This document shows positions 1,228 through 4,463 of a stretch of 50,819 bases of DNA, piece by piece. The translations under genes were made by a program, and so were the position numbers. Source of the stretch: Clostridium sp. (GTDB taxonomy: Bacteria; Bacillota; Clostridia; Lachnospirales; Lachnospiraceae); the NCBI GenBank assembly GCA_023664385.1, contig JAMPFU010000019.1, forward strand, positions 1 to 50,819, written 5' to 3'. Each line of letters begins with the position of its first letter. Position 1 is the stretch's first letter. A model generated the notes under the pieces. The model did not search any database, was not told where the DNA came from, and saw nothing but the letters and a program-made list of their open reading frames with translations.

Positions 1228-1839
1228 ATGGATATGATCGGACAGGTATATGGATATGTTCGGGTATCAAGCACGGATCAGAATGAAAACAGGCAGCTAG
1301 ATGCAATGTGGGAAAAGAATATCCCAAAGGGGAACTTGTATATTGATAAACAGTCGGGAAAGGATTTTGACAGACCTCAATATAAGAAGATGATAAAACG
1401 CTTGAAGTCGGGTGACCTGCTGTATATCGTCAGTATTGACCGCTTGGGGAGAAACTATAATGAAATTCAGAATCAATGGCATATTCTGACAAAGGAAAAA
1501 GACGTGGATATTTGCGTGATTGATATGCCGTTGCTGGACACGCGTACAGGTAAAGACCTAATAGGAACCTTTATTGCAGATATAGTGCTTCAGATACTTT
1601 CATTTGTAGCGCAAAATGAGCGTGAAAATATCAGGAAACGTCAGGCGGAGGGAATAGAGGCAGCTAAGGCAAGGGGTGTAAAATTTGGACGTCCCCCACA
1701 ACCGCTTCCGACTAACTTTCAGGAAGTCCATGTGGCATGGAGAAGTAAAAAAATAACACTTCAACAAGCGGCAGATGCCTGTGAAATGCCGGTAGGAACA
1801 TTTTATTCTAAGGCGGTAAAGCTGGAGAGTCTGACATAA
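1228..1839 (+). CDS. small serine recombinase (resolvase/invertase family), candidate DNA invertase
   Basis: 203 residues from ATG 1228. An in-frame GTG at 1210 is possible but overlaps the AAAGGAGA ribosome site at 1213-1220 that serves 1228. The N-terminal catalytic domain has YGYVRVSS (nucleophile Ser14), the NRQLDA arginine and SIDRLGRN, all hallmarks of the family. The long E-helix ([14 protein letters not shown]) leads into GRPP and a C-terminal helix-turn-helix (about residues 165-200). The length fits the Hin/Tn3-resolvase class rather than large serine integrases. No transposase or transposon ends are nearby. Immediately downstream are two inverted dyad sites flanking about 190 bp, so inversion of that segment is the likely job (inference). 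Confidence 0.92.
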
Positions 1840-1846
1840 AAAAACA

Positions 1847-1880
1847 TTTTGTTTGAAAAAGTGTACTTTTTCGAACAAAA
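1847..1880. other. candidate recombination site 1 (16-bp dyad, central GT)
   Basis: Two 16-base arms, TTTTGTTTGAAAAAGT and ACTTTTTCGAACAAAA, are complementary except for one position and flank a central GT at 1863-1864. This is the layout of a small serine recombinase crossover site: a dyad with a 2-bp overlap. The core AAAAGTGTACTTTTTC (1857-1872) recurs exactly, in inverted orientation, at 2043-2058. On the minus strand the dyad is followed by TG and seven T (1840-1846 read in reverse), so it could also work as a weak leftward terminator. Confidence 0.7.
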
Positions 1881-1905
1881 ATAACAGAAACATTACATAT
1901 CCATT

Positions 1906-1934
1906 ATAATATCATTATAAACAAATTATTTCAA
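1906..1934 (-). promoter_or_regulatory. candidate promoter inside the invertible segment, facing left
   Basis: On the minus strand, TTGAAA (1934-1929) and TATTAT (1911-1906) are separated by exactly 17 bp, with an extended -10 TG one base upstream of the hexamer. In the orientation sequenced it points toward the recombinase's 3' end. After inversion it would lie at about 1981-2009 and point at the surface gene. Confidence 0.5.
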
Positions 1935-1958
1935 GCATTTATAAGACATTCGTAAAAT

Positions 1959-1987
1959 TCGACAGAAAATAGAGGATATTCTATTAT
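1959..1987 (+). promoter_or_regulatory. weaker candidate promoter inside the invertible segment, facing right
   Basis: TCGACA (1959-1964), a 17-bp spacer and TATTAT (1982-1987) on the plus strand, without an extended -10. It could give some expression of the surface gene in the present orientation, or it may be a chance match in AT-rich DNA. It makes the ON/OFF assignment uncertain. Confidence 0.3.
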
Positions 1988-2034
1988 CTATGAGCACCAT
2001 AACCGAGTGCATGAAAAATAATTTTCCCCTTTTT

Positions 2035-2068
2035 TTAATTATGAAAAAGTACACTTTTATAAATTTAA
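2035..2068. other. candidate recombination site 2 (inverted copy of site 1 core)
   Basis: GAAAAAGT-AC-ACTTTTAT is centred on 2051-2052. The 16 bases 2043-2058 (GAAAAAGTACACTTTT) are the exact reverse complement of 1857-1872 in site 1. The outer arms are less symmetric than in site 1. No other copy of this core was noticed in the window. Confidence 0.65.
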
Positions 2069-2162
2069 AAAGTTTGTTGTAGTGCACAAATTTATCAGCA
2101 GAAGGGAGGAAAGAGGAGTGGACAAGGCAGAAGCATTCAAATTATTTTTTATGGAGGATGCT

Positions 2163-4463
2163 ATGAGAAAATTAAAAAAAATATTGGCAATTGCATTGAC
2201 AGCCGCCTGTACAGCTTCCATGACGTATGTGCCTGTAAAAGCAGAAGAACAAGTAGAAATTCAAGAAGAACAAGCAGAGGTTAAAGAAGCGCAAGTGGCA
2301 ACTCAAGAAGAACAAGTAGCAGGACAGAATGTGGGGTGGAATGGAACTGATCAAGGAACCATTGAACCAATAACACAACCGACGCCAACTGATAATAATG
2401 GAATTCTTGTTTATGAAAATGTTAAACTCAAATGGTTTCCAAAAGACACTAATGTCGGAAGAAATCAAGATGGGTATTGGGTAGGTGCTAAGGTTATTAT
2501 TCCTGCGTCAGCAGACCCAGAGGCTATCAAATATAAGTTGAATGAAGGTGAAACGAAAAACTTTACTGACTATAAAGATGGTGACAACTATATGCAGATA
2601 TGGGGATTGGTTACGCAGGATTGGATAGACCAATTTAAAGCTGCTGGTAAGGATTCGTTAAATTACAGATACGCATTTGATTGGGATGGCGATGGAACTG
2701 CTGATCAGACATTAGGACTTAAAATTATGATTGACAGTATAACGTTAACTTGGAATGGAACTGATCAGGGAACCATTGAAACTATAACACAGCCGACGCC
2801 AGATAATGACAATGGAATCCTTGTTTATGATGAGGTAGAGCTTAGATGGTTTCCGAAGGACACTAACGCTGGAAGAAATCAAGATGGATACTGGGTAGGC
2901 GCTAAGATTACGATTCCTGCATCGGCAGCGTCAGAGGATATCACATATAAGCTGAATGGTGGTGCAGCAAAAAACTTTACTGACTATAAGGATGGCGACG
3001 ATTATATAACAGTATGGGGATTGGTTACGCAGGATTGGATAGACCAATTTAAAGCTGATGGTAAGGATTCCTTAAATTACAGATATGCATTTGATTGGGA
3101 TGGCAATGGAACTGCCGATCAGACATTGGGACTTAAGATTATGGTTGACGGTATAATATTAGGCGATAAGTGTGGTATACATGATCCGGATCAGGTTGTG
3201 GAGATAAATGAGGTCCCTGCAACTTGTACGGAAGATGGAGTTGAAGCCCATAAAAAATGTAAAGTATGTGGAATTTTATTAGATGTTGACGGAAACGAAA
3301 TTGAGGAAAACGATTTAGTAATTTCCACTACAGGTCATGCGGCAGTAAAAACAGAAGGCAAAGCAGCAACCTGTAAAGAGGCAGGATATGAGGCATACTG
3401 GACATGTAGTGTTTGTGAAAAGATGTTTTCGGACGAAATATGCATTACGGAAATTGACAAGCCGGTAGAGGTTGCAATTGATGCAACAGCACACACTGCA
3501 ACAAAGACGGAAGCCAAGGATGCAACAGAGACAGAAGCTGGAAACATCGAATACTGGCACTGTTCAGTCTGTGATAAGTATTTCAGTGATGAAGCATTAA
3601 CTACTGAAATCACAGAAGCTGATACAGTAATTCCAGCAACAGGAGCAGAAGGAGATAAGTTTGCAACTGCAGACGGATATGACTTCTATAAGGATGAAGA
3701 CGGTAATATAACCTGTGTAGATGAATCAGGCAAAAAAGTTATCGACGAATTCAAGTGTGACGGTGAGTATACATACTATTTCCAAGGAGATGGAACTGCA
3801 ATGAAAGATTATCTTTCATACCATCCGAATGGAGTAGATTTGATATGCATTGATAAAGACGGGCATATGGTGATTAATGACTTTGCTTCAGACGGTGTTT
3901 ACACATACTATTTCCAAGGAGATGGAACTGCAATGAAAGATTATCTTTCATACCATCCGAATGGAGTAGATTTGATATGCATTGATAAAGACGGGCATAT
4001 GGTGATTAATGACTTTGCTTCAGACGGTGTTTACACATACTATTTCCAAGGAGATGGAACTGCAATGAAAGATAGGCTTACATACCATCCTGACGGAGTG
4101 CATATCATCTATTTTGATGAAAACGGACATGAAGTGTTCAGCAACTTCCATCACGTGGAAAAGTCTATTGCAGGAGAAACAGTGGACGACCTTTGCTTCT
4201 TTGATGTATACGGATATATGTATAAGGACGTTATGACCTATGACCAGGCAGGAGAGAAGCTTTACTATGTAAATCCATATGGTGTCGTAGAGCAGGACGA
4301 GTGGTTTGAATTTTCTGACACATGTGTATGGGCAGGAACGACAATCAAGGTCGGAGCAGGCTACGGCTATGCAACTGCAGACGGAACACTGATGGTAAAC
4401 AAACACATCTATGATTGGCGTGGAAACTTCGTATACTTGCAGGGTGATGGACATATACGGTAG
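2163..4463 (+). CDS. large secreted surface protein with duplicated domain, CxxC repeats and shared C-terminal module
   Basis: 766 residues from ATG 2163, chosen because the signal peptide (MRKLKKILAIAL to VKA, cleavage near residue 27) starts there with GGAGG at 2153-2157; in-frame GTG codons at 2082 and 2118 would lengthen it. After a Glu/Gln-rich linker come two ~138-residue copies (about 57-194 and 195-334) of a domain with WNGTDQGTIE, RNQDGYWVGA and VTQDWIDQF. Then follow Cys-rich units with CKVCG, CSVCE and CSVCD (about 335-490), then aromatic-glycine repeats (YYFQGDGTAM) and the C-terminal module shared with three neighbours. No fixed promoter was found between the inverted site and the start, so expression may depend on the switch. 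The function is unknown; adhesion is a guess. Confidence 0.85.
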   Translation: MRKLKKILAIALTAACTASMTYVPVKAEEQVEIQEEQAEVKEAQVATQEEQVAGQNVGWNGTDQGTIEPITQPTPTDNNGILVYENVKLKWFPKDTNVGRNQDGYWVGAKVIIPASADPEAIKYKLNEGETKNFTDYKDGDNYMQIWGLVTQDWIDQFKAAGKDSLNYRYAFDWDGDGTADQTLGLKIMIDSITLTWNGTDQGTIETITQPTPDNDNGILVYDEVELRWFPKDTNAGRNQDGYWVGAKITIPASAASEDITYKLNGGAAKNFTDYKDGDDYITVWGLVTQDWIDQFKADGKDSLNYRYAFDWDGNGTADQTLGLKIMVDGIILGDKCGIHDPDQVVEINEVPATCTEDGVEAHKKCKVCGILLDVDGNEIEENDLVISTTGHAAVKTEGKAATCKEAGYEAYWTCSVCEKMFSDEICITEIDKPVEVAIDATAHTATKTEAKDATETEAGNIEYWHCSVCDKYFSDEALTTEITEADTVIPATGAEGDKFATADGYDFYKDEDGNITCVDESGKKVIDEFKCDGEYTYYFQGDGTAMKDYLSYHPNGVDLICIDKDGHMVINDFASDGVYTYYFQGDGTAMKDYLSYHPNGVDLICIDKDGHMVINDFASDGVYTYYFQGDGTAMKDRLTYHPDGVHIIYFDENGHEVFSNFHHVEKSIAGETVDDLCFFDVYGYMYKDVMTYDQAGEKLYYVNPYGVVEQDEWFEFSDTCVWAGTTIKVGAGYGYATADGTLMVNKHIYDWRGNFVYLQGDGHIR
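3771..4076 (+). repeat. 132-bp in-frame tandem repeat
   Basis: Two consecutive 132-bp units (3771-3902, 3903-4034) are identical, and a third begins at 4035 and stays identical for about 40 bases before diverging. Each unit encodes 44 residues containing YYFQGDGTAM and SYHPNG. The lack of any mismatch shows a recent duplication, and copy number is probably variable. Confidence 0.9.

Follow-up and report, generated by a model that had tools for sequence, protein, structure and literature searches.

Hin, Gin and Cin are small serine recombinases that act on inverted sites with a 2-bp crossover, and the segment inverted by Hin is about 1 kb long. Hin relies on an enhancer bound by Fis (PMC3798978). 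Mpi of Bacteroides fragilis, likewise a small serine recombinase, inverts short promoter segments in front of surface genes and is described as acting on at least 13 scattered regions (PMC5903667). Clostridial inversions are already known from read data, with short invertible regions near surface or motility genes, as for RecV of C. difficile and inverton group 139 (PMC5903667, PMC11892184). In the parts of these papers that were covered, the clostridial invertons linked to an enzyme are associated with tyrosine-type recombinases (PMC5903667, PMC11892184), which also form the most significant clostridial enzyme link described (PMC11892184). Here, we present a locus of the serine type from a Clostridium sp., located in a DNA stretch of 50,819 nt (contig JAMPFU010000019.1, hereafter the window). 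By far the best reading of it is a self-contained phase-variation switch with an invertible promoter, to which we give a probability of roughly 85% on the basis of comparative sequence analysis. The locus resembles the Hin group in its small serine recombinase, inverted sites and putative 2-bp crossover, but its recombinase gene is not part of the segment, and the segment is far shorter than in Hin. It resembles Mpi in placing a short promoter segment before a surface gene, whereas one recombinase is here paired with a single adjacent pair of sites. No description of a serine recombinase family with this layout was recognised in the literature searched, to which the novelty of the family is limited.

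The recombinase gene extends from 1228 to 1839 on the forward strand (203 aa; start codon ATG 1228 or GTG 1210, with the stop codon ending at 1839), and its product matches the Pfam Resolvase domain (PF00239) with 98.7 bits. S14, R12 and the stretch D71-R72-L-G-R75 showed no variation across 16 aligned relatives; by analogy with gamma-delta resolvase, S14 and the D71–R75 stretch are proposed to have catalytic roles. The protein has the characteristics expected of a small serine recombinase with a conserved catalytic region and is a candidate invertase for an invertible promoter. A protein search of its own genome returned a single match to the 203-aa recombinase, and the two further Resolvase-domain matches above the cut-off in this genome are frames of 525 and 544 aa. 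Among solved structures in the PDB, Sin is the nearest (2r0q, 109.5 bits), followed by gamma-delta resolvase (62.4 bits) and phage DNA-invertase entries (58.2 bits). The score against the Mpi family model (NCBIfam PRK13413) was 39.2 bits versus a curated cut-off of 272, which places the protein outside that family, and the identity of 30% to Cin of phage P1 speaks against a close relationship with Hin, Gin and Cin. By these comparisons, the nearest known group is that of Sin/Bin3 and the Gram-positive transposon resolvases, with Hin and Mpi more distant. Resolvase relatives encoded on plasmids share 51–52% identity with the recombinase; three of them carry the core AAARGT-NN-ACYTTT (10–12 of 12 positions) some 161–166 bp upstream of the gene, and two of these adjoin Mu-type transposase genes. 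The sites described below share this core, and the plasmid loci independently point to it as the family's crossover sequence and suggest that switches and resolvases are close kin. The arrangement nevertheless differs: in the plasmid resolvase relatives the core lies upstream of the gene, while in the switches a pair of inverted copies follows the gene and encloses a promoter.

The preliminary description had placed two dyad sites directly behind the recombinase gene, with a 16-bp core and its exact inverted copy, and this is what the sequence contains. The left site (1847–1880), TTTTGTTTGAAAAAGT-GT-ACTTTTTCGAACAAAA, begins 7 bp past the gene and forms a near-perfect 34-bp dyad of the form 16-2-16 with its centre GT at 1863–1864, in agreement with the family core. 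The right site (2039–2064; core 2045–2058, centre AC at 2051–2052) is inverted relative to the left one and, at about 26 bp, is the weaker dyad. The core AAAAGTGTACTTTTTC at 1857–1872 recurs as its exact reverse complement at 2043–2058. The complementary central dinucleotides GT and AC are likewise as had been described; they lie 188 bp apart and are both asymmetric and matching in the inverted sites, the configuration appropriate for inversion. The longest exact inverted repeat within 1840–2162 is 16 nt, a length that was also reached by one of 2000 dinucleotide shuffles, so that the repeat taken alone is suggestive and not decisive. No exact core exists in the genome beyond these two sites, and a second target there was rejected accordingly; a core with one mismatch was found at one further place (contig C77), and a reversed control pattern yields as much. 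In the 1.5 kb upstream of the gene, no core with at least 12 of 14 positions was found that could serve as a crossover site of the resolvase type.

The proposed invertible segment (1865–2050) is flanked by both sites, and its 188 bp from crossover to crossover correspond to about 18 helical turns and lie in the 10.5-bp phase of the family (see below). Inside it we found, on the reverse strand, a sigma70-like candidate promoter, TTGAAA-N17-TATTAT with a TG before the second hexamer (1906–1934), which by sequence provides the internal promoter expected of an invertible promoter segment. It points back at the recombinase gene from its 3′ side and away from the gene at 2163, which corresponds to an OFF state of the latter. 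A weaker forward match at 1959–1987 was rejected as a promoter, as its second hexamer is not retained in two orthologues. The proposed target (2163–4463, forward strand; the frame opens at 2082) encodes a 766-aa secreted protein. Its C-terminal half contains repeats, and similarity to choline-binding and glucan-binding repeats remained below the cut-off. The likely start codon is ATG 2163, preceded by GGAGG at 2153–2157 as judged by eye. From the end of the right core at 2058 to this codon are about 105 bp, close to the roughly 110 bases given earlier for the distance between the segment and the secreted protein. Behind the gene, a hairpin with a T-tract on the forward strand (4555–4606; −26.1 kcal/mol, z −9.2) resembles an intrinsic terminator and suggests that the target consists of one gene; a separate terminator scan of 950–4800, with its own limits, listed none. 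The search for a known RNA element across 1–12,700 gave no Rfam match, and this candidate was rejected.

In the mechanism that we infer for the window's own locus, the recombinase would bind the two dyad sites just past its own stop codon and bring them into synapsis by bending the intervening 188 bp, followed by cutting at the 2-bp centres GT and AC and rejoining with the segment turned round. In the present orientation, in which the promoter faces the recombinase gene, the surface gene at 2163 is expected to be silent, and inversion would bring the promoter in front of it. The direction of the promoter also invites the guess that antisense transcription might dampen the recombinase in the OFF state.

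A search of 61 genomes, including, apart from the window's own, 36 of its genus, identified two, G001 and G036, that alone carry the recombinase at 93–96% identity. Both have mismatch-free cores, 190 and 198 bp apart, and the orientation is identical, OFF-like, in all three copies. When the three copies are aligned, no differences occur in the left dyad, in the right core and the flank to its left, or in either promoter hexamer, while the remaining DNA between the sites has diverged among the three species. The 24-mers common to the window and both orthologues end at the right site (2059 in the window), and the gene beyond it differs among the three genomes; the switch is therefore the constant part and the neighbouring gene the variable one.

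Relatives of the recombinase were drawn from named genomes (the best 80 of 595 candidates), other genomes, viral contigs and named phage or plasmid records, leaving 301 distinct loci of 318 after removal of duplicates. An inverted core pair (AAARGTGTACYTTT or variants) within 420 bp after the recombinase was detected at 109 of these 301 loci. In the genome collections, pairs were present at 102 of 224 loci, rising to 118 once a second, centre-blind criterion was added; the others had no such site downstream (74), a single one (17), a site upstream only (1) or were cut short (14). Viral, phage and plasmid loci had pairs in 7 of 85 cases. Applied to a subset of 166 loci, this rule returned pairs in 77 of 156 real sequences, in none of the 156 reversed ones and in none of 146 stretches located 800 bp further on; the reversed control was confined to the motif scan because reversal preserves plain inverted repeats. 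A FastTree phylogeny of 230 recombinases places the window in one clade with L037, L055, L056, L135 and L136 (support 90), and all six members of this clade have site pairs. The same tree requires 56 transitions between loci with and without a detected pair, hence the layout was either often gained and lost or was missed by the motif at many loci. Among an order-wide sample of 392 genomes, 126 have a relative of the recombinase at E 1e-60 or better.

The crossover centres and the spacing of the sites could be compared across this family. In a set of 124 site pairs picked irrespective of their centres, the centres are inverted and complementary in 113, compared with a mean of 45.2 and a maximum of 60 in 5000 shuffles (GT/AC 67, AC/GT 19, AT/AT 18, CT/AG 4, AA/TT 3, AG/CT 1 and TG/CA 1); one pair, at locus L328, has its centres in direct orientation. 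Such covariation argues for recombination rather than mere binding, since a 2-bp crossover requires matching centres and an operator does not. The spacing between sites peaks at about 115, 126, 137, 147, 156 and 190 bp, a period of 10.5 bp, with a phasing R of 0.736 for the 103 pairs under 200 bp (the 6 longer pairs left out) and of 0.76 when each of the 18 clusters formed at 70% identity contributed one locus; a threshold of 60% produced one cluster only and no phasing value.

The family also contains segments in both promoter orientations. Of the 109 segments, 63 have a clear promoter-like element directed towards the recombinase and 5 a forward one, and 41 are unclear, versus 4.2 and 4.3, respectively, in shuffles. 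The excess of promoters facing the recombinase is real, while the forward count taken alone is not above chance, and the forward assignments are backed only by mirror-image positions and alignments. The last base of the −10 element is 20–24, 31–36 or 41–45 bp from the faced site in 63 of 68 segments, including all five forward ones; these bins, which were set after seeing the data, hold 11% in shuffles. Further evidence comes from the loci L058 and L077, whose recombinases are identical at 151 of 202 positions. Their segments align with a score of 102 when one is inverted and of 28 as they are (null 22, sd 6.6), L077 being a mirror image of L058 with 70 of 102 identical positions, so by alignment these clearly appear to be homologous segments in opposite orientation. 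A weaker case is the pair L098 and L126 (75 inverted vs 35; null 36, sd 8, maximum 55), and three more short inverted matches occur among the family segments. A single orientation in relatives carrying the recombinase had been named beforehand as evidence against a switch; this was found for the three closest copies, and it does not extend to the wider clade of the window, in which the promoter of L136 is reversed and points forward. An invertible terminator was rejected as the general content of the segments, as a hairpin with a T-tract is not a general feature of the 109; terminator-like elements at −6 kcal/mol were found in 6.4% on the plus strand vs 2.1% in shuffles, and in 7.3% vs 5.2% on the minus strand.

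The inversion switch upstream of a surface gene proposed in the preliminary description is thus supported by the recurrence of the pairs, the covarying centres, the 10.5-bp phasing and the presence of both orientations in the family, and it was weighed against three other explanations. The switch might have been real formerly and now be stuck in one orientation in the genus, as the OFF-like state of all three orthologous copies and the weaker right dyad could indicate. We consider this improbable, because the recombinase frame is open and highly conserved between the species and both cores are unchanged across them. The common orientation would also suit dyads that are operators, with a recombinase-like protein binding them, looping the DNA and repressing the promoter without inversion, and a phased spacing of 94–200 bp is likewise compatible with a repression loop. 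Operators, however, have no need of covarying centres; the residues proposed to be catalytic are retained, and the homologous segments of L058 and L077 lie in opposite orientation, which makes this explanation quite unlikely.

The kinship with plasmid resolvases, including the three with the same core upstream, two of them beside Mu-type transposase genes, raises the alternative that the gene is the remnant of a transposon resolvase and the sites are parts of its resolution site. This is very unlikely: the window has its sites in inverted orientation behind the gene and no core-like site in the 1.5 kb scanned upstream, and the three orthologous copies retain the layout next to surface genes that differ, a layout that also recurs across the family. 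Taking the invertible promoter as the preferred reading, a wider and less probable scenario can be drawn, in which widespread clostridial one-protein plug-in switches, related to resolvases, took the core from an upstream resolution site to an inverted pair around a promoter segment of 95–200 bp, with the stiffness of DNA forcing whole-turn spacing. The common orientation would then fire antisense through the recombinase gene, damping the enzyme and holding the target off, and the other would fire into the next gene, be it for surface proteins, flagellin, chemoreceptors, an acyltransferase, CsrA or even TnpB. Should many relatives of the recombinase operate switches of this kind, phase variation would extend to numerous clostridial genes for surface, motility and signalling functions, and enzyme, sites and target could all be read from sequence alone. 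The phased spacing of 95–200 bp would make DNA bending in serine recombinase synapsis directly testable, and the core shared with resolvases provides a path by which a resolvase could become an invertase.

The genes beyond the right site, taken by a simple rule as the first open reading frame at each of the 109 loci, were on the plus strand in 90 cases (minus strand 10, too short 8, none 1), with a median gene start 39 bp from the right core. By a crude test, 37 of the 90 targets look secreted. Pfam matches among the 90 comprise AMP-binding domains (5), TnpB-type domains (4), leucine-rich repeats (3), VWA (3), flagellin (2) and chemoreceptors (2), and CsrA and an acyltransferase are also found among the targets of the family.

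In the window, surface-protein genes are arranged in an array (2082–12672) and have 3′ modules in common, and two of them contain leucine-rich repeats similar to those of internalin J. In G001 and G036, two genomes of other species that carry the recombinase of the window at 93–96% identity, the switch is constant, whereas the gene content of the surrounding surface-gene array differs from that in the window. We also noticed that the stretches at 30–173 and 12445–12588 match each other, and that both are shared with one single place in G001. A portion of the gene at 11560–12672 appears to recur, as an incomplete copy, at the start of the contig.

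Among the 301 distinct loci of related recombinases, nine possess a TnpB-like gene at most 3.5 kb downstream of the recombinase (L058, L059, L063, L064, L074, L076, L077, L085 and L222). In L063, L064, L076 and L077 this gene is the first one beyond the right site, a position that looks as if a relative of RNA-guided nucleases, TnpB, were placed under an invertible promoter. At another locus, L183, the first gene beyond the forward-oriented switch encodes a CsrA-like regulator.

Unusual site arrangements were observed downstream of the recombinase at two loci. In L328, both sites have the centre AC and hence lie in direct orientation; its relative L095, with a similar downstream gene, has the centres AC and GT. 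L089 possesses three core sites instead of two (centres GT, GT and AC), located 17, 130 and 246 bp past the recombinase stop codon.
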